A stretch of DNA of 64,000 nucleotides, taken from the NCBI RefSeq assembly GCF_019097595.1, contig NC_080717.1:21786336-21850335 (forward strand), in the 5' to 3' direction. Shown piece by piece: positions 1-60,642 of the stretch. The notes beneath the pieces were generated by a model. That model did no database searches, was not told the DNA's origin, and saw only the letters and a list, made by a program, of their open reading frames with translations. Origin of the DNA: Hemibagrus wyckioides (Eukaryota; Chordata; Actinopteri; Siluriformes; Bagridae). The position numbers and the translations under genes were made by a program. The number at the start of each line of letters is the position of its first letter. Position 1 is the stretch's first letter.

Positions 1-830
1 TTCCAAGACAGGTTCCACTCGGAACAGGCTTCGCAAGGGTCAATCAAAGAAGTTGAGTCCTCCTGCTGTGGGTCAGGTGCAGAAGCTGGCTTTGAAAAAC
101 AGGCGCATGAGTGCTGCCAGCATTGCTTTAGAGGTTGCAGAAGCGGGAGTTCAGCTTGTTAGTGCTCAGACCATACACCGCACACTGCAACGAATTGGTT
201 TGCATGGCCGTCATCCCAGAAGGAAGCCTCTTCTGAAGCTGGCTCACAAGAAAGCCCACAAACAGTTTGCTGAAGACAACTTGTCCAAGAGCATGAATTA
301 CTGGAACCATGTCCTGTGGTCTGATGAGATTAAGATAAACTTGTTTGGGTCAGATGGTGTCCAGCATGTGTGGCGATGCCCTGGTGAGGAGTACCAAGAA
401 AATTGTCTCTTGCCTACAGTTAAGCATGGTGGTGTTGTATCATGGTCTGGGGCTGCATGAGTGCTGCTGGTACTGGGGGGCTGCAGTTCGCAGAACATGA
501 TGACCTCCCTTCAAAAACTTGGCCAAACGGCAGTTTTCCAACATGATAACGACCCCAAACACACCGCCAAGATGACAACTGCCTTGCTGAGGAAGGTGAA
601 GGTGATGGAGTGGCCAAGTACGTCTCCAGACCTGAACCCTATTGAGCACCTGTGGGGCATCCTCAAGCGGAAGAAGAGCCATGTGTCTAACATCCAGCAG
701 CTCCGTTATATCATTATGGATGAATGGAAGAGGATCCCAGCAACAACATGTGCAGCTCTGGTGAATTCCATGCCCAGGAGGATTAAGGCCGTGCTAGATA
801 ACAGATTCTAGGTGTATATTTTCTCATGTT
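1..830 (+). mobile_element. Degenerate Tc1-like transposon, left end cut by window edge
   Basis: Two reading frames (53-460 and 461-811) are the two halves of one Tc1/mariner DDE transposase. The first carries the pairing region and the first catalytic Asp (LWSDEIKINLFG). The second carries the second Asp ([12 protein letters not shown]) and the C-terminal acidic block (SPDLNPIEHLWGILK), ending at a stop near 811. A TGA after WSGAA separates them, and the block usually found between GCMSAAGTGELQF and MIPSL is shortened, so at least one internal deletion as well as a stop breaks the gene. No terminal repeat can be assigned: the 5' end is outside the window and the sequence after 830 shows no obvious mate. 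A non-functional fossil copy. Confidence 0.9.
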
Positions 831-1944: not shown

Positions 1945-2111
1945 ATGAGTACAAAGAACAAGAAAATGCAGAGCAACTCTTCTGTTCATTTGCCCCTTCA
2001 TGAGAGAGAAAATGCCGTCATACAAGGTGATGACAGCTACCTGCCTGATGGGAAGGACATCTCTTTTCCTGGCCCTCTGTTGAGGTGAGTCCTTTTTTTT
2101 TCTTCTCTCAG

Positions 2112-2146
<35 letters not shown>

Positions 2147-3998
2147 GCACAAAGTGAACATTCAGCAGTAATGTTTTTGTAAACATATTATACATTTATA
2201 ATCACACTGTCCGGTGTTACCCAAATGAGGATGAGGTTTTGATTCTGGTTCCTCTCAAAGTTTTTTCTTTGACCCCAGTCGCCTCAGACTTGCTCATTAG
2301 GGATGATTTTGTCTGATTTTGTCTTGGACTTTTGTACTAGGTTTCTGTAAAGCTACTTTGAGACAATGTCCATTCGTAAAAGCGCTATACAAATAAATTT
2401 GAATTGAATTGGATTGAATATCATCAAGTGATCAAAGTGTATGTGCAGTAATCCATATACCTCTATTACAGCAGTAAGGTCAAGATGAAGGACGTGCTGA
2501 ACTTCATCCAGAGGAAATCCGAGGAGTGCCTACAACATGTAGAGGAACCTGACCAGAAGGAGGCCTATTTCTTCTGGAAGATGATGGAGCTTCACTGCAG
2601 CAAAAAGGGAGTAAGTGTTTTAGTTGATTGTGTGTTGACAAAATTATTCATGATAAAAGCAGCAAGCGATTTAATCTACAAATAAGCAAAATTTGTCAGA
2701 ATGAATAAATATACTGTGCCTAGAAGTTAAATATGTTTCTTTTACAGAAAGTACTGCTGCCTGACATCGCTGCGCTCCTGTTGAAGCACTACAAACTTCT
2801 GAGAAAAAGGGTATCATTTTGTTCTTAATGATTTTTTTGTTTTAATACTGTATGGAATATGTTATATTAACTATACCTTTGTTTACTAATACATCAGCAT
2901 TTGCATCTGTCTGTTATGTATACTGTCATTATGTTATGTATTTTTGTGTAGTTTTTGCTTTATTCTTTTGCTCTCTAATGTGCCAATTCCTGCTACAGCT
3001 AGGGATTAACAATCAAGATATCTGGTGTCTTCCGCTGGCAAAGCTTTTGTGCTCTGCCAACCCAGACTACAAAATATTGGATGCTGTGGTTCGAATGGGA
3101 CAGGACCTCGGTATGGATAACATAAACAATATTTTAGGAACTTCACATGTTGTAATTAGATCATGAACTCTGGACTGTTACACGGACCCAAATCCTTACA
3201 CGCGTGTTTGGTTTTTCATCTGCAGACTCCAAAGGACTGACCTATGCTGCACAGCTGTGCTACATGTCTGCACTGGAGGAGCTGGATATCTTAGCGAGAT
3301 CCAGCTTTGAGCTCATTGGCTGTAAAAGGTATTGGGTGTGTGTTTGTTTGAGAGTGCATGTGAATGATTATTTTTCCGACTTGCTACTGAGACCCTTTTC
3401 TCTTTGTACAGTCTGCCAATCAGCCAGTCAGCCATGAGGGAAGCAATTGAACGAACTGAGGTGTACGAATACGTATGCTCGTTGACCACAGGGCTTCCCC
3501 AGTCAAACTTCCAGGTTAGACTTTTTATTTTTATTCCTTTTTTAACTCGGTCACGTTTAAGCATGAACCTTTTTACTAAGGTGCAATGACTGTTTTAGAT
3601 CTTCAAGTGCTATCACGCCAGCAAACTAGCTGAGCTTGGCCTTTCCGACCAAGCCTTTGAGTACTGCAAGACCATTGCTAGAGCAATTGCTAAGTTTCCA
3701 CGAGAAATCACCAAGACAACGATGGAAATGACCATTGCGGTAAATACGATTATCGATATGTGAAATAGTTGCCAGGTTTTATCTGCAAAGTATTTAGTCA
3801 GTTTAATTTCCCTGTCTGTCTTGTAGCTGTCTGAGAAGCTACACCAAGGGATGGGAACAGAACCAAAATGGCTGATAAATCTTCGTCGACTGTATACGGA
3901 CGAAGAGTTTAAGCTGAAGAACTCAAAACGTGGCCTTATGAATAGCGAGATGTTCAATCTCCCACGTCCACATCAGCAAGGCCACATTACATCATGGG
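1945..3998 (+). other. SEC16-like domain of the fusion gene (exons 1-8)
   Basis: Residues 1 to about 324. The opening matches the start of the SEC16 central domain: a PGPL motif, then VLNFIQRKSEECLQ and an LLPDIAALLLKHY helix that resembles the 'DIAELLL' helix of SEC16. The text then jumps to the later part (AAQLCYM, then LIGCKSLP, then AIERTEVYEYV, then KLAELGLSDQAFEYCKTIA, then EPKWLINLRRL). The middle block expected in SEC16, with the 'LLLYGRKKDA' and 'GLWGHALLLA' helices, is absent, so the Sec13-binding and self-association part has probably been lost. Exon 2 has a tandem acceptor (cagcag at 2469-2474), allowing the inclusion or loss of one Ser in either in-frame form. Confidence 0.75.
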
Positions 3999-6900
3999 GT
4001 ATGTTCATCCACCATTTGGACAAAAACCTGTAATACAGTAATGATTTAAAGTACAGCACATGTCCGTCAGATCTTTAACACATTACACAGGGACAAGGTT
4101 TTTTAAAAGGATTGAATCTAATATGATCATATTTGCATAAAGTGTACATTAGTATTTGACAGAAAGGGATCTGACCTTAAGTAGCTGAAAAGATTATTTC
4201 GGATTGATTTTTGCAAAGTTAAGAGATATTACATATGCAGAGTGTGTAAGCTTAAATGTGTAGGCTGTACATTTGTTTCTTGAGAGCTCTCTGGGTAAGA
4301 TAACTGATTTATCACATAAATTGGTGGAAATCGTGTGTTTTAGCATGTATTCATGGTGCTTTACGGTACCCTGAGACGTTGACAACAGACTTCTTATTTG
4401 TTACTAAATGATTGTATACTTGTTTAACAGAGGAGTTTGACTCGCTGTACGATTCGGGCAAGCTGCTGGGGGAAGGAGGCATGGGGAAAGTCTATGGAGG
4501 AGTCCGTAGGGCAGATGGAAAACAGGTAACAGGACTGCATGTCTACAGTTAATTTGCACTAATCAACACAATACATTACAAATTATGTATATGTCTTAGT
4601 GAGGTGTTCTAGAAGAATGTAATTATGTATTGTATATGTGAACAGATTGCCATGAAATTTGTGCCCAAGGAAAATAATCAGACTTTCATCCCCGTTGTAA
4701 GTACACTTCCTTTACTTCTGAGATATTGCATAGACGTTATGTGTAGAATTATGTGTAAATAGAATTGTTTCTGGTAACATAATATTGAATGATCCATAAT
4801 AGACACCTGAGTCATTACTAATCCAAGCCTTTGTAGTGTAACATTTCTGTTAGACGTAATCAATTCCATACCCATGCTAAGCGTGTCTGTTTATATTTCA
4901 GCCTGGAGAGACACACAGCCTTCCTCTGGAGGTTGCGTTAATGAAAATGGTGTCTAAGCCATGTCTCCATGAGAATATCTTAGAGCTGATCGAGTGGTTC
5001 CAGATGTCAGACTGCTACATCTTGATCTTGGAGCGACCCATCCCCTGCACAGACCTGCGACAATTCCTAAGAGATCACAAAGGTCGCCTGTATGAACCAC
5101 TGGCACAGCACATCATGGGACAGGTGGTTCAGGCCATTCGCCACTGCTGTGACTGTGGTGTCCTGCACCGTGATATCAAGGACACCAATATTCTCATCCA
5201 CACCGATACCATGCAGGTGAAGCTGATGGACTTTGGCTGTGGTGATTTGCTGCAGGACACCCCCTACAGATCTTATGCAGGTAAGAACATCATAGGTATT
5301 GGACAGAATAAAAAAATGCAGTGGAGAACCATTTTTGTGACCTTGCTGACGGTGCTTTTTCACTTAGGAACTAAACCTTATGTCCCACCGGAGTGGATAT
5401 GTGAGAACGAATATTTGGGTGTTCCTGCTAGCGTCTGGAGTCTGGGAGTCCTTCTGTTCAAAATGATGTGTGGACGCCTGCCCTTCCGGTGCAAAAACGA
5501 CATCGTTGAAGGCAAGATGCACTTCGCTCCCGGCCTGTCTAAAGGTGAGTCCAAATCCATCATGTTTAGACATGTATAGTAATGTTGGAAAACCTGCCTT
5601 AAACAAAAAATGAATCATATTAATTGATTTAAAAAACAAAAAACAAATTCTGACTAAATGTCTCTCTCATCCCTACACACAGCTTGCCGGGACCTGATCT
5701 TGTGGTGTCTGGCGCGACAGCCTAACTCCCGCCCAACGTTCGAGGAAATCCTCAGCCACGAGTGGTTTGAGGGACCTCAGAAGAATGTCAAGGTGAGACA
5801 GTGAGAAGAGAATAGACCTTAATGTATCGAGCAAAAACTTGCTATAATAAGGTCACCTGGCTTGTACTGCTCAGTAACAGATACTGTTGTGCTTATCTAA
5901 TTCTATTAGATTACACAGATAACATAGAGATTGAAAATAAAACAGATTACATTTTTATCCTTTAGTTTTCAATGAGAAGTGAAAATAAAAACCCATTAAA
6001 CACAGAGTAATCTGTGGGAATATAAATGTTAAGCTCAAAACAATGCTAACAAATCGGTGAATTCTTGTTCTTTGTTTAATGTCGTTACTGTAGACTTTTT
6101 TTGCAGTATCTATTTCTTGAGATGTCATCTCTTAGTAATTAAGTGCTTGCATTACATGCAGTCAAATATTAGGCATATCCAATAGGATAATAAATCATAT
6201 TTATGACGTGAATTTATTATGTACAATACTTTTTTACGTACAGAACCAGCGTCCTCTTCTGGAGAGCCACATCATTACACCATGGGGTATGTTACAATCC
6301 AACTAATTTCCAAAAGTGTTGCTAAAATTTACTGTGGATTTTCTTATTTCACCTTGATTTGAATGATTGTCTGTTTAACAGAGGAGTTTGAGTCTCTGTA
6401 CATTCTGGGAGAGCTGCTGGGTGAAGGAGTCCATGCGGCAGTCAATGCAGGAGTCCGTAATGCTGATGGCATGCAGGTCACATGACTGCACATGACATCT
6501 ACAGTTCATTTACACTAAGCAACAAAATGCAGGAATTGTAAAGTATTCAAATTGATCAATGTCCCTGAGGTACAATCACAGGGTTAAACAATAATACTTG
6601 CCTGATTGTCTGGGGCAAGGAAAACGCTATGTCAGAACAGCAGAATGAAAAATCATAGCTAGTCTGAAGCCTTAATTCCCCAAGTTTCATTATATTCCCG
6701 ATCACAACTGTGTACAAATTATGAACTGAATATGTTCTGTTCATGTTTTATAATAAAAATGTCTTTTTATATCTGAACAGGTTGCACTTAAATATGTGGG
6801 GAAGACTCCGAATGATAGATTCATCACCATTGTAAGTATTACTATTTCTGAGATTCTACAGAGAAGACATAGGGTTCAAATAACATTCACCTGATGGACC

Positions 6901-8000
6901 AAATGATGTGTCCATTTACTCAGTCCTGCTAAAATAATCCCAAACAATTTACCTTCAAATTAGAGTTCACATTCAGATGTTATTCCCTATCATCCATAAT
7001 AGATATCTGAATCATTACCAGATACAAGACCTTCGTACTGTATCATCTCCGTTCCAGTAGTTTCGAAAAATTCACTCCGTTCCAGGGCTAACTGTATCTG
7101 TTCGTATTTCAGCCTGGAGAGACACACAGCCTTCCTGTGGAGGTCGCACTGCTAAAAAAGGTTTCCAGGCCACTTCGTTGTAAGAAAGTGCTGGAGATGA
7201 TCGAATGGTTTGAGATGTCCGATTGCTACATCTTGGTCCTGGAGCGGCCCAGTCCCTGCATGGACGTGCAGAAATTCCTCAAACTTCACAGCGGCCGACT
7301 GTCAGAAGCACTGGCTCAAAAAATCATGAGGCAGGTGGTTGAAGCCACTCAACACTGCTGTAACGCCGGTGTTTTTCACGGTGACATCAAGGCAGAGAAT
7401 CTTCTCATTGACCCAGACACACTGGAAGTGAAGCTAATTGACTTTGGCTGTGGTGATCTGTTCACTCACACACCCTTCACGGAATATAAAGGTATGTGCC
7501 AAATTGGTACGAGACAGAATCAAAGAGAATGTAGTGGGGTTTGCAATGTTGCTGATGGCGCTCCTTCTATCTTTTTTGCTCAGGCACTTGGCATTTCTCT
7601 CCACGTGAGTGGGTGTGTGAAGGAGAGTATTTTGGTTGTCCTGCCACCATTTGGGCTCTGGGAGTTCTCCTGTTTCACCTGGTGTGTGGACACTTCCCCT
7701 TCTATAGCAAGGACGACATCGTTAACAAGAAGATAGACTTCCCCCCCGGCCTGTCTGAAGGTGAGAGAACGTAGAAGCATCACCATTTAGAACTGCTGAA
7801 GTTGTAAAATTGGCATTACAAGATAAATAGATTTTTTAATAATATTAATATCTGTCTAAATGTCATAGCACTGTCTAAAATATCCCATCACTGCACACAC
7901 AGGTTGCTGCAATCTGATAAATTGGTGTCTGGGGCAGGAAGCTGAATTTCGACCGAAGTTTGAAGAAATCCTCAGCCATGAATGGTTTACAAATAAATAA
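1945..8000 (+). CDS. SEC16-domain protein fused to two tandem PIM-type kinase domains
   Basis: I built 19 coding exons: 1945-2084, 2472-2610, 2748-2810, 2999-3110, 3226-3328, 3412-3514, 3599-3739, 3827-3998, 4431-4525, 4646-4696, 4902-5280, 5368-5544, 5683-5792, 6244-6286, 6382-6476, 6781-6831, 7113-7491, 7584-7760, 7903-8000. They total 2628 nt with every phase closing, giving 875 residues and a stop. Residues about 40-285 resemble the central conserved domain of the COPII scaffold SEC16 (FPGPLLR near the start; AIERTEVYEY, HASKLAELGL and ALxYC-like FEYCKTIARAI near the end). Residues about 325-595 form a complete PIM-family Ser/Thr kinase (LILERP, HRDIKD, DFGCGD, PPEW). Residues about 610-875 form a second PIM-like kinase that lacks key residues. 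The parts are recognised from family knowledge; the combined architecture is not one I know from mammals. No upstream exon, signal peptide or membrane segment is seen. Likely cytosolic; function unknown. Confidence 0.85.
2225..2420 (+). repeat. Dispersed fish repeat with gaattgaattg tail (intronic)
   Basis: Contains 'ctggttcctctcaaag', 'gcctcagacttgctcatt', 'tttgagacaatgtcc' and 'agcgctatacaaataaat' followed by a short gaatt-rich tail. I recognise this as a very common dispersed repeat of otophysan fish. It lies in intron 1 of the SEC16-PIM gene. Confidence 0.7.
4431..5792 (+). other. First PIM-type kinase domain, catalytically complete
   Basis: Residues about 325-595. Glycine loop G338-E-G340-G-M-G343, ATP-binding lysine K360 (IAMK), catalytic loop H462-R-D464, metal-binding D483-F-G485, then PPEW in place of APE as in PIM kinases, and a C-terminal RPTFEEILSHEWF. 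The hinge region reads ILERPIP, carrying the proline that is typical of PIM hinges. All residues needed for phosphotransfer are present. Confidence 0.9.
6244..8000 (+). other. Second PIM-type kinase domain, probably pseudokinase
   Basis: Residues about 596-875. A tandem copy of the first kinase plus its short leader (HITSWEEF in the first, HIITPWEEF in the second). The third loop glycine is Ala (A628), the catalytic-loop Arg is Gly (H747-G-D749), and PPEW is PREW. Lys645 and D768-F-G770 are kept. Loss of the HRD arginine and of a loop glycine suggests weak or absent catalysis, possibly a regulatory domain; activity cannot be excluded because the catalytic Asp, the Lys and DFG remain. Confidence 0.75.
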
Positions 8001-8027: not shown

Positions 8028-9548
8028 CAGTGGGGGAAAAAATGATTTGATCCCCTGCTGATTTTGCCCACTGACAAAGAAATGACCAGTCTGTAATTTT
8101 AATGGTAGGTTTATCTGAACAGTGAGAGACAGAATAACAACAAAAAAATCCAGAAAAACACATTTCAAAAAAGTTCTACATTGATTTGCATTTTATTGAG
8201 TGAAATAAGTATTTGACCCCTTTGCAAAACATGACTTAGTACTTGGTGGCAGACCCTTGTTGGCAATCACAGACGTCAGACATTTCTTGTAGTTGGCCAC
8301 CAGGTTTGCACACATCTCACATCTCAAGGAATTTGGGCCCACTCCTCTTTGCAGATCCTCTCCAAGACATTAAGGTTTTGTGGCTGACCCTACAGCTCCC
8401 TCCACAGATTTTCTATGGGATTACGGTATGGAGACTGGCTAGGCCACTACAGGACCTTAATGTGCTTCTTCTTGAACCACTCCTTTGTTGCCTTGGCCGT
8501 GTGTTTTGGGTCATTGTCAGGCTGGAATATCCATCCATGACCCATTTTCAATGCCCTGGCTGAGGGAAGGAGGTTCTCACTCAAGATTTAAAGGTACATG
8601 GCCCCGTCCATCGTCCCTTTGATGCGGTGCAGTTGTCCTGTCACCTGGGGATGGTGTTCTTGGGGTCATGGGCAGCATTCCTCCTCCTCCAAACACGGCG
8701 AGTTGAGTTGATGCCAAAGAGCTGGATTTTAGTCTCATTTGACCACAACACTTTCACCCAGTTCTCCTCTGAATCATTCAGATGTTCACTGGCAAACTTC
8801 AGATGATCCTGTACATGTGCTTTCTTTAGCAGGGGGACCTTGCGGGCGTTACTGGATTTCACGGCGTAGTGTGTTACCAATTGTTTTCTTGGTGACTATG
8901 GTCCCAGCTGCCTTGAGATCACTGACAAAATCCTCCAGTGTAATTCTGGGCTGATTCCTCGCCGTTCTCATGATCATTGAAACTCCATGAGGTGAGACCT
9001 TGCATGGAGCCCCAGACCGAGGAAGATCGACAGTCCTTTTGTGTTTCTTCCATTTGGGAATAATCGCACCAACTGTTGTCACCTTCTCACCAAGCTGCTT
9101 GGCGATGGTCTTGTAGCTCATTCCAGCCTTGTGTAGGTCTACAATCTTGTCCCTGACATCCATGGACAGCTCTTTGGTCTTGGCCATGATGGAGAGTTTG
9201 GAATCTGATTGATTGCTTCCTTCTGTGGACAGGTGTCTCTCATACAGGTAACCAGCTGAGATTAAGAGCAGTCCCCGAGAGTCCTACTGTAATCTCAGCT
9301 CCTTACCTGTATAAAAGACACCTGGGAGCCAGAAATCTTTCTGATTGATAGGGGATTAAATGCTTATTTCACTCATTAAAATGCAAATCAATGTAGAACT
9401 TTTCTGAAATGTGTTTTTCTGGATTTTTTTGTTGTTATTCTGCCTCTCACTGTTCAAATACACCTACCATTAAAATTACAGACTGATCATTTCTTTGTCA
9501 GTGGGCAAACAAAAGCAGCAGGGGATCAAATACTTTTTTCCCTCACTG
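8028..9548 (-). mobile_element. Near-complete Tc1-like transposon with ~200-bp inverted repeats
   Basis: The element starts cagtgggggaaaaaatgatt and ends with the inverse, ...tttttccctcactg. It is flanked by TA at 8026-8027 and 9549-9550, the Tc1/mariner target. About 200 bp at each end (8028-8220 and 9350-9548) are near-perfect inverted copies, sharing the paired segments aatgaccagtctgtaatttt and caaatcaatgtagaactttt in opposite orientation. The transposase lies on the minus strand (8641-9187) and is broken. Inside, at about 9246-9322, is a second imperfect palindrome (cagctgagatta against taatctcagctc) just upstream of the transposase start. Confidence 0.93.
8641..9187 (-). pseudogene. Tc1-like transposase, frameshifted and truncated
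   Basis: Reading right to left, the start at 9187 ([20 protein letters not shown]) opens an intact N-terminal helix-turn-helix with the GRPR-like PRSGAPCKV linker. The frame is lost near 8850-8880 and resumes in another frame with LKKAHVQDHLKFASEHL and the first catalytic-Asp region, here LWSNETKIQLFG, where the expected Asp of 'SDE' is Asn. The remaining DDE region (8243-8640 on this strand) has further frame breaks. Not functional. Confidence 0.85.
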
Positions 9549-10614: not shown

Positions 10615-11544
10615 TATATTGCCAAAAGTATTCGCTCACCCATCCAAATAATCAGAATCAGGTGTTCCAATCACTTCCATGGCCACAGGTGTATAAAATC
10701 AAGCACCTAGGCATGCAGACTGTTTTTACAAACATTTGTGAAAGAATGGGTCGCTCTCAGGAACTGAATTCCAGCGTGGAACTGTGATAGGATGCCACCT
10801 GTGCAACAAATCCAGTCGTGAAATTTCCTCGCTCCTAAATATTCCACAGTCAACTGTCAGCTGTATTATAAGAACGTGGAAGTGTTTGGGAACGACAGCA
10901 ACTCAGCCACGAAGTGGTAGGCCACGTAAACTGATGGAGCGGGGTCAGCGGATGCTGAGGCGCATAGTGTGAAGAGGTGCGAAGAAGTGTAAAGTTTGGT
11001 GGAGGGGGGATTATGGTGTGGGGTTGTTTTTCAGGAGCTGGGCTTGACCCCTTAGTTCCAGTGAAAGGAACTCTGAATGCTTCAGCATACCAAGACATTT
11101 TGGACAATTCCATGCTCCCAACTTTGTGGGAACAGTTTGGAGCTGGCCCCTTCCTCTTCCAACATGACTGTGCACCAGTGACCAAAGCAAGGTCCATAAA
11201 GACATGGATGACAGAGTCTGGTGTGGATGAACTTGACTGGCCTGCACAGAGTCCTGACCTCAACCCGATAGGACACCTTTGGGATGAATTAGAGCGGAGA
11301 CTGAGAGCCAGGCCTTCTCGTCCAACATCAGTGTGTGACCTCACAAATGCACTTCTGGAAGAATGGTCAGAAATTCCCATAAACACACTCCTAAACCTTG
11401 TGGACAGCCTTCCCAGAAGAGTTGAAGCTGTTATAGCTGCAAAGGGTGGACCGACGTCATATTGAACCCTATGGATTAGGAATGGGATGTCACTTAATTT
11501 CATATGCGAGTCAAGGCAGGTGAGCGAATACTTTTGGCAATATA

Positions 11545-14224: not shown

Positions 14225-36823
<22,599 letters not shown>

Positions 36824-41988: not shown

Positions 41989-43389
41989 CTAATTTGGTGA
42001 GGTATGCATGCGCATGTGACTGATGAGGTTTCGTTGTTGTGTAAACTTGCCCCCGCAGACGTGACACTCGTAGGGCTTCTCACCCGAGTGCACGCGCATG
42101 TGCTCGGTGAGGCGGTACTGCCGCGTGAAGCGCATGCCGCACTCCTTGCAGGCAAACGGCTTCAGGCCCAGATGACTGCGCATGTGGCGCGTCATGGTGC
42201 CGCGCTGCGTAAACATTTTGCCACAGATGTTGCAAGGGAATGGTCGCAGCGTGTCCAGCTCTTTGTAGGGTTTCAACGGGCTTTTGTCTCCGACCTCTGG
42301 GGCTTCGTGGGCGCCAGCAATGGGAGGATCTTCATCCGCTTCCTCTTTGTCCCGGCCGAGGTTCACGTCTGCGTCCGTGTGGGATTCTACATGGGAATTT
42401 AAGCTTTCTGAGGATGGGAATCCTTTTCCACATGGGATACAGACGTAACTGTTGTCCTCCTGAGATGGTTCGAGGTAGGACTCCTGTCTGTAGACAAAGT
42501 GAGGGCTGGCACCATTGGATCTTCTGTCTTGTGGCTGCTCTTGGGAATTTTCTCCCACATGGTTTTGGCTCAAGTGATTTCCAACTTTGACTGTAGGTGT
42601 GTAACCGTTGATGTTGCCTTTCCTCCTGGAGCGCTCTCTAGATGGTGCCCTTCTCCATTCCTGCGCTCCATCTAAAGCATCCAGGCCTCGGGTTTTCTCC
42701 TGGGAGACCTTTCTCTCTGTACCTGACCGGAGAGTATTCTTAGTTGTCTTGGAAACAGAGGACTGTGAGTATTCCTGCATACTAATGCCATCATTATTTA
42801 CAACACGTTGAGAAGAGCTCTTCTTGGTCAAATCCAGCCCAAAGGTTTGCTTTCCGCTCGAGTTGCGTTTGTTCGCGCCATTGTGTCTTTTCTTTGGAGG
42901 GACCATGTTTGCATATACTTCAATGTCAGATGAAGTGTCTTCTGCCTCTCGCTTCACCAAGTGTTTTGAAGCGGGTGAAAAAGGCAGGTTTTGGGTGTGT
43001 AACGAGCCCTTGCAGGACGTGCTGCTGGACTCAAGTTCGCTGGTACACAGACTCGCCAGGTCGTGGAGCTGGAGGTAGTTAGCTACAGTGAGAAAGCTGA
43101 TCAGATCCTGCATGCGCTCTTTTCCCTGACTCTCCTCACATAACTTGCCTGTATAAATGAAGTCCAGAATTTTCTGGAACATGGCTGGCTCCACCAACTC
43201 GGCATCGAGGTGGATGAGGTTATCGTGCAGGACGAGGGATTTGAAGTAGCTGCTGGCGGCAGCGAGGACGCTTTTATGAGCTCGAAAGAGTGTGTTGTCC
43301 ACCATAATGACAACATCGCATAAGAAGCCCTTGGAACGTTGCTGGTTGAGCTGCAGCAGCAGTTGGCTGGCATAATTTGAGAGCTCCAT
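41989..43389 (-). CDS. hic1l: HIC-family BTB/zinc-finger transcriptional repressor (hic1l-like)
   Basis: One uninterrupted 466-codon coding exon with an acceptor (ttatctag) at 43421, so a non-coding upstream exon is expected. Residues 1-120 are a BTB/POZ dimerisation domain starting MELSNYASQLLLQLNQQRSK, close to HIC1 and HIC2 (GFLCDVVIMV, FRAHKSVLAA, ILDFIYTGKL). GLDLTKK at 184-190 matches the CtBP-binding GLDLSKK motif of HIC proteins. Zinc fingers: one isolated C2H2 at 315-337 (CIPCGKGF) and three contiguous at 382-464 with HSGEKPYEC linker. HIC proteins bind GGCA-type sites and repress transcription with CtBP and other partners in the nucleus. HIC1 and HIC2 carry another finger before the last three; here only KPYKELDTL remains of it. 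Shorter than mammalian HIC1/HIC2 (over 600 residues). The choice of hic1l over hic1 or hic2 is by elimination. Confidence 0.85.
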   Translation of the reverse strand: MELSNYASQLLLQLNQQRSKGFLCDVVIMVDNTLFRAHKSVLAAASSYFKSLVLHDNLIHLDAELVEPAMFQKILDFIYTGKLCEESQGKERMQDLISFLTVANYLQLHDLASLCTSELESSSTSCKGSLHTQNLPFSPASKHLVKREAEDTSSDIEVYANMVPPKKRHNGANKRNSSGKQTFGLDLTKKSSSQRVVNNDGISMQEYSQSSVSKTTKNTLRSGTERKVSQEKTRGLDALDGAQEWRRAPSRERSRRKGNINGYTPTVKVGNHLSQNHVGENSQEQPQDRRSNGASPHFVYRQESYLEPSQEDNSYVCIPCGKGFPSSESLNSHVESHTDADVNLGRDKEEADEDPPIAGAHEAPEVGDKSPLKPYKELDTLRPFPCNICGKMFTQRGTMTRHMRSHLGLKPFACKECGMRFTRQYRLTEHMRVHSGEKPYECHVCGGKFTQQRNLISHMRMHTSPN

Positions 43390-43539
43390 CTCCTGCCCTT
43401 GATGTTTTTCATTGAGGTGACTAGATAAAAGAACAAAAAGGTACAGGGTTATTTATTTGTTTTTTTTAACAAAACATTCACAGTGAAGCAACTACATTTG
43501 AATTGTGTTACTGTAGGAACATAATCAAAAAAGAAGACA

Positions 43540-46973: not shown

Positions 46974-60642
<13,669 letters not shown>

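Follow-up and report, generated by a model that had tools for sequence, protein, structure and literature searches.

A predicted catfish gene joining a truncated SEC16-derived part to two PIM-type kinases, and the multi-copy family to which it belongs

The locus and its predicted protein

A 64-kb stretch of the Hemibagrus wyckioides genome (contig NC_080717.1), referred to below as the window, carries at positions 1945-8000 of the plus strand a gene whose predicted product joins a segment derived from SEC16, an organiser of vesicle coats, to two kinases of the PIM type. An earlier reading of the sequence, hereafter the original prediction, had proposed 19 exons closing in phase into 875 codons. 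Re-derivation of the 19 exons from the raw sequence recovered this model: all internal exon borders follow GT-AG, the reading phases match across every junction, and there is a single stop, at the terminal position 8000. The product comprises 875 residues when the acceptor at 2472 is used and 874 with the alternative acceptor at 2475. A search of this product for the Sec16 central domain and for Pkinase, which the original prediction had proposed as a check, found domains of both types.

The C-terminal part contains two Pkinase stretches according to Pfam (E 1.2e-101), and PIM1 is the best PDB match of both kinase 1 (E 7e-77) and kinase 2 (E 2.1e-64), in agreement with their previous assignment to the PIM family. 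Foldseek comparison of the model of P0003, a database relative described below, listed 50 rows, all of them PIM entries, with 48-49% identity to PIM1 chains. The PIM hinge proline (ERPxP) occurs in both window kinases, as ERPIP and ERPSP, and in 45 of 46 family members. All catalytic residues checked in kinase 1 (K, E, HRD, N, DFG) are intact. Judged by its sequence, kinase 2 is partly degenerate: HGD stands for HRD, PRE for PPE, and its loop GEGVHA is devoid of the third glycine, while K, E, D, N and DFG are retained. The HGD variant is common to kinase 2 of the window, P0003 and P0032. The two kinase blocks have matching exon lengths (95, 51, 379 and 177 bases), their similarity extends into the introns, and the ratio of non-synonymous to synonymous substitution rates between them is 0.43, which indicates that both kinases are constrained on average.

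The N-terminal part had been described as a SEC16 central-domain homologue. The homology stands, but sequence comparison shows a truncated derivative and not a full central domain. Pfam recognizes PF12932 (Sec16 mid-region) at residues 30-93 (E 3.5e-5, 24.7 bits for a cut-off of 23) and PF12931 (TPR_Sec16) at residues 139-277 (E 2.7e-17), and the profile of yeast Sec16 (3mzk_B) is matched with an E-value of 2.5e-20 in an alignment beginning at residue 47. A structure-level match to the Sec16 fold was obtained for a relative from Prochilodus, in a model whose flanks are of low confidence. The first 44 positions of PF12932, upstream of the FPGPL motif, where we presume the Sec13-binding beta-blade to lie, are unmatched in the window protein; positions 1-115 of PF12931 are unmatched as well, and the protein does not contain a complete ACE1 solenoid with its crown. 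At the position of the exon 3/4 border, the canonical SEC16 proteins carry 126, 155 and 149 extra residues, in a comparison set of three proteins and one solved chain, and the missing solenoid segment would correspond to the 'crown' of the coat solenoid. The remaining 'trunk' consists of three helices, a junction at this border and eight further helices, and retains the TEVYEY block. A short linker and the two kinases occupy the place of the SEC16 C-terminal (Sec23/Sar1-binding) region, which is lacking. In the P0003 model, the 10-residue means of the predicted local distance difference test are mostly 82-94 in the SEC16 part, between residues 41 and 290 of the model, with a dip to 50 near residues 171-180. 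In an alignment of 34 proteins including two canonical SEC16 sequences (alignment A2), all 10 reported invariant columns fall within the SEC16 part of P0025. As for SEC16A or SEC16B being the source, no vertebrate protein named SEC16 was found among the database matches listed.

The SEC16-derived part and the two PIM-type kinases are confirmed as one gene encoding one predicted protein. The original prediction had proposed that exon 8 (3827-3998) ends the SEC16 part and runs in frame into the kinase leader, and the exon 8/9 join is backed by several lines of evidence. The predicted protein P0003 (Hemibagrus wyckioides LOC131350349) aligns to window residues 3-843 with 70% identity, P0006 aligns to residues 1-842 with 66% identity, and 58 of the 137 database proteins listed have both a SEC16-derived and a kinase match. 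A further relative, P0041, is a SEC16-kinase protein of 611 residues encoded on a contig of 2,397 bases with the source label 'lgn'. Its equivalent in the window, exons 1-13 (1945-5792), includes 12 introns and takes up about 3.85 kb. This contig is too short to accommodate introns and would represent a spliced message or its copy, with SEC16 and kinase in a shared message; it could be a retrocopy, also intronless, yet such a copy would itself come from a joint message. The open frame of exon 9 extends upstream to a stop without any ATG, and intron 8 contains no ATG mini-exon of at least 12 bases followed by a GT[AG]AG donor (three candidates are present if any GT donor is accepted), so that a kinase-only gene would be left without an evident start. 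Separate genes with a start between positions 3998 and 4431, the alternative that the original prediction had itself named, are ruled out by the missing ATG or mini-exon with a consensus-like donor and by the intronless P0041 contig, although, as far as the sequence alone goes, a first exon that is non-coding or departs from the consensus could still supply a start. The exons and the other features of the window are collected in Table 1.

Table 1. Exons of the SEC16-kinase gene and other features of the 64-kb window
Feature	Position	Strand	Content
Exon 1	1945..2084	+	ATG, N-terminal leader up to and including FPGPL motif
Exon 2	2472..2610 (alternative start 2475)	+	helices downstream of FPGPL, SEC16-derived; C-terminal part of PF12932
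Exon 3	2748..2810	+	trunk helix no. 3; 3' border is the site of 126-155 extra residues in canonical SEC16
Exon 4	2999..3110	+	start of second trunk part (TPR_Sec16)
Exon 5	3226..3328	+	TPR_Sec16
Exon 6	3412..3514	+	TPR_Sec16; conserved TEVYEY motif
Exon 7	3599..3739	+	TPR_Sec16; YHASKLAELGL helix
Exon 8	3827..3998	+	SEC16 trunk end, linker, HITSW leader; joins kinase 1 in frame
Exon 9	4431..4525	+	glycine loop of kinase 1 (GEGGMG)
Exon 10	4646..4696	+	ATP lysine of kinase 1 (IAMK)
Exon 11	4902..5280	+	kinase 1: C-helix Glu, PIM hinge LERPIP, HRD, DFG
Exon 12	5368..5544	+	kinase 1: PPE, C-lobe
Exon 13	5683..5792	+	end of kinase 1
Exon 14	6244..6286	+	linker between kinases; terminal HIITPW resembles exon 8 tail
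Exon 15	6382..6476	+	kinase 2: degraded glycine loop (GEGVHA)
Exon 16	6781..6831	+	ATP lysine of kinase 2 (VALK)
Exon 17	7113..7491	+	kinase 2: hinge LERPSP, HGD replacing HRD, DFG
Exon 18	7584..7760	+	kinase 2: C-lobe, PRE replacing PPE
Exon 19	7903..8000	+	end of kinase 2, stop
AATAAA	8008..8013	+	candidate poly(A) signal directly 3' of stop
DDE_3 open reading frame	461-808	+	Tc1/mariner-type remnant
Sleeping Beauty-type helix-turn-helix open reading frame	8852-9283	-	Tc1/mariner-type remnant
DDE_3 open reading frame	10968-11462	+	Tc1/mariner-type remnant
ADAM-type disintegrin/cysteine-rich exon	18020-18253	-	
487-codon open frame	41992-43452	-	BTB domain and C2H2 zinc fingers
RhoGEF exon	54525-54809	-	
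463-codon open frame	57122-58510	-	no Pfam match

Transposase remnants of the Tc1/mariner type are found on both flanks of the gene. A tblastn search of the window (E 1e-3) found no further SEC16 or PIM copy outside positions 1945-8000.

A SEC16-kinase family in catfishes

The search for the same architecture in other fish, also suggested by the original prediction, shows that the predicted protein belongs to a multi-copy catfish family and is not a single odd gene. Relatives were taken from the best 120 of 2,795 matches in the main database search, and further fusions may exist beyond the matches listed; the SEC16 and kinase matches were scored with profile hidden Markov models built in this analysis, and some of these matches are partial. 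The 58 two-part proteins derive from 15 named species, whose genera we take to be those of catfishes, and from one further contig. Counted as representatives of 90%-identity clusters, which are not gene counts and include P0028 and partial proteins, they are distributed among Hemibagrus guttatus (13), H. wyckioides (9), Ictalurus furcatus (7), Tachysurus fulvidraco (6), Silurus meridionalis (5), Clarias gariepinus (4) and T. vachellii (3, including the NLR-like P0028), with one or two each in T. ichikawai, I. punctatus, Ameiurus melas, C. magur, S. asotus, Neoarius graeffei, Pangasius djambal and Pangasianodon hypophthalmus. Joining at 95% identity leaves 13 representatives in H. guttatus, 8 in H. 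wyckioides, 5 in T. fulvidraco and 7 in I. furcatus. The first kinases of P0006 and P0010, like those of P0003 and P0011, are near-identical and the H. guttatus proteins bear two locus-tag series; the number of genes per genome is therefore not fixed by these counts. The database names of family members are misleading (fibroblast growth factor receptor-like, aurora kinase-like, MARK-A). In the open-licence PubMed Central (PMC) literature, no paper was found on Sec16 together with PIM kinase and zebrafish or on Sec16 together with catfish, and no SEC16-PIM kinase protein is described in the titles and abstract openings listed for fish PIM expansions and for pim-1-like and pim-2-like genes in catfish.

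Most members of the family possess a single kinase and the two-kinase form is rare. Two near-full kinases are present in 7 of the 59 two-part proteins, the window being counted; in three of these (the window, P0003 and P0006) they follow the SEC16 part without a second SEC16 part, and the other four (P0022, P0033, P0131 and P0132) may be adjacent genes merged by annotation. The 1,137-residue P0028 of Tachysurus vachellii has a FISNA-NACHT-LRR organization and an N-terminus with short SEC16-derived and kinase pieces of the catfish family. The combination may be a chimeric artefact of annotation, or it may reflect genuine shuffling between two fish families that have both expanded.

Phylogenies of the kinase and SEC16 parts were computed as quick trees with some long branches, which meet in the SEC16 tree. 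In the kinase tree, 59 of the 63 rows of fused kinases fall into one clade of 67 rows (support of 95 in the Shimodaira-Hasegawa-like approximate likelihood ratio test) and the remaining four into a small clade with two kinase-only rows from Hemibagrus; the kinases of Trichomycterus and Brachyhypopomus lie outside both. Eight kinase-only rows are found inside the large clade. At least one of them, P0088, is identical to the fused P0014 in the compared domain, and as such a near-copy it suggests that some kinase-only rows are probably partial annotations. We take the pattern to reflect a single fusion, after which some members lost a part or were only partially annotated. Kinase 1 of the window belongs to a 12-row clade (98) and kinase 2 to a 5-row clade (99), each with Hemibagrus sequences and both nested in one clade of 21 rows (97), so that the kinases were probably duplicated after the fusion but before the window species arose.

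Comparison across 46 of the predicted proteins shows that the SEC16 and kinase parts have been inherited together as a unit: their identity matrices are correlated with a Mantel r of 0.816, whereas 5,000 permutations gave no value above 0.202. Mean identity is 0.494 for the SEC16 part versus 0.542 for the kinase, and the former is lower in 861 of 1,035 pairs, which are not independent.

The characiform Prochilodus magdalenae has proteins derived from SEC16 that are truncated in the same way and show no match to a kinase. In the SEC16 tree they are placed outside or beside the catfish family, in a weakly supported split (catfish branch support 11). Five Prochilodus proteins annotated as SEC16 fusions to lectin or GIMAP (P0023, P0025-P0027 and P0029) were not retained as true fusions. 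The start MDPWYQNHPYWN is identical behind a lectin part in P0023 and P0026 and behind an AIG1-type part in P0029, and its occurrence behind such unlike parts makes annotation run-through likelier than real fusion. In the simplest history, a truncated SEC16 paralogue would predate the catfish family, would have joined a PIM-like kinase in catfishes and would then have multiplied; the second kinase would have been gained by tandem duplication in one branch of the family.

Possible roles of the SEC16 trunk and the kinases

The function of the protein is something we infer from its predicted parts and their relatives. The trunk would likely be an arm for docking or recognition by which kinase 1 is steered or gated, and kinase 2 would likely regulate kinase 1; for this reading as a whole we put the probability at roughly 0.5. 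From the residues described above, kinase 1 is expected to be active and kinase 2 weak. In SEC16A, homodimerisation and Sec13 binding reside in the central domain, and Sec23/Sar1 binding in the C-terminus (PMC7619307). Because the Sec13-binding, dimerising and Sec23/Sar1-binding parts of SEC16 appear absent, the trunk would no longer build endoplasmic reticulum (ER) exit sites. It would retain one binding surface, which either guides the kinase towards a SEC16-related partner or is bound by others as their target.

Several observations weigh against this reading. The full two-kinase form is found in only 3 of 59 proteins, and most of the family thus does not need kinase 2. The weakness of kinase 2 is itself questioned by the retention of K, E, D, N and DFG, and of HRD in P0006 kinase 2 and in P0066. 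Since kinase-only rows sit among fused rows, the fused label requires at least 10 changes on the kinase tree, at least 8 of them forced by starred branches. The somewhat faster divergence of the SEC16 part is also compatible with relaxed constraint. Finally, the P0003 model has a predicted template modelling score of 0.47, and the packing of its domains is not fixed by the model.

A possible but doubtful alternative, drawn by analogy, is an innate-immune sensor with an integrated decoy, in which the trunk would bait pathogen factors acting on ER exit sites or SEC16 and kinase 1 would signal. Its attraction lies in the lineage-specific multiplication (Hemibagrus guttatus contributes 13 of the 58 two-part database proteins), in a plant parallel, in the links of Sec16A to interferon and TBK1 and in the dependence of an intracellular bacterium on exit sites. 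The authors of WTK6-vWA, which the combination of an intact and a partly degenerate kinase resembles, hypothesise decoys (PMC10260399), Sec16A has a part in interferon signalling through TRAF3/MAVS (PMC3390413) and forms a complex with TBK1 and PI31 upon NOD2/TLR2 stimulation (PMC6503738), and the growth of an intracellular bacterium is supported by, or dependent on, ER exit sites (PMC6464245). The retention of the trunk with loss of the scaffold parts, and the different modules (PH, CLASP_N) on other fish PIM kinases, would also fit a decoy. However, multiplication by itself is no proof of an immune role, most members have a single kinase, and SEC16A knock-down left cross-presentation unchanged in the same TBK1 study (PMC6503738). 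The analogy may be carried further, to a catfish equivalent of the tandem kinases that confer resistance in plants, with the trunk as bait for invaders that take over ER exit sites, kinase 1 as alarm and kinase 2, where present, as latch, fish PIM kinases providing a chassis for bait modules (SEC16, PH, CLASP); we regard this extended version as unlikely.

The ER-exit-site kinase put forward in the original prediction, in which the SEC16 part would still place the kinase at exit sites to phosphorylate the coat protein complex II (COPII) machinery, draws on a clear Sec16 homology in sequence and fold and on the TEVYEY block. This proposal is weakened and has become improbable, as positions 1-44 of PF12932 (the presumed Sec13 blade) are unmatched, the inferred crown is absent and the kinases lie where the SEC16 C-terminus would be. 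Least probable of all is a by-product of fish PIM expansion, an accidental fusion carried by duplicating kinases with a SEC16 part of little function: the slightly faster divergence of that part and the broken or partial domains of several members, some possibly annotation errors, agree with it, but the frame of the SEC16 part is open, the P0003 model shows this part well folded, many paralogues retain it, and it contains all the invariant columns of alignment A2.

The catfish family constitutes a natural experiment on which portion of SEC16 is able to work independently of COPII, and it presents a scaffold fragment that was borrowed and then passed on with a kinase over many duplications. It would also offer an animal parallel, open to testing, to those plant kinases that carry integrated decoys. 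Catfishes are farmed at large scale.

Comparison with known systems

Known PIM kinases are single-domain proteins. The PIM family is further characterized by constitutive activity without a regulatory domain; the window protein carries an extra domain. Both window kinases are closest to PIM1 and share the ERPxP hinge, but unlike PIM1, PIM2 and PIM3 they are arranged in tandem behind a SEC16-derived solenoid. Compared with SEC16A, SEC16B and yeast Sec16 (PDB 3mzk), the window protein has a part homologous to the central domain and differs by the absence of the crown, of a match to the blade segment and of the Sec23/Sar1-binding C-terminus, in place of which it carries kinases. The plant tandem kinase WTK6-vWA/Lr9 likewise combines an intact kinase, a degenerate kinase and an extra domain (PMC10260399), whereas its extra domain is vWA/Vwaint and its resistance function has been shown genetically; the likeness is one of analogy, and no sequence relation is claimed.

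Other parallels are found among fish. Cyprinid tandem PIM-like proteins (Danio P0060 and Onychostoma P0056; also P0064) have two PIM-like kinases in one predicted protein, but have no SEC16 match, and their own kinases pair together, apart from the fused clade. Trichomycterus is a loricarioid catfish. The PH-PIM proteins of this genus (P0075 and P0082) and the CLASP_N-PIM protein of Brachyhypopomus (P0073) resemble the window protein in placing a PIM-like kinase behind a borrowed N-terminal module. The module is a different one in each case, and the kinases of P0075 and P0073 lie outside the main SEC16-PIM clade (P0082 is not in the tree). The PH and CLASP_N cases suggest that fish PIM kinases captured N-terminal modules repeatedly.

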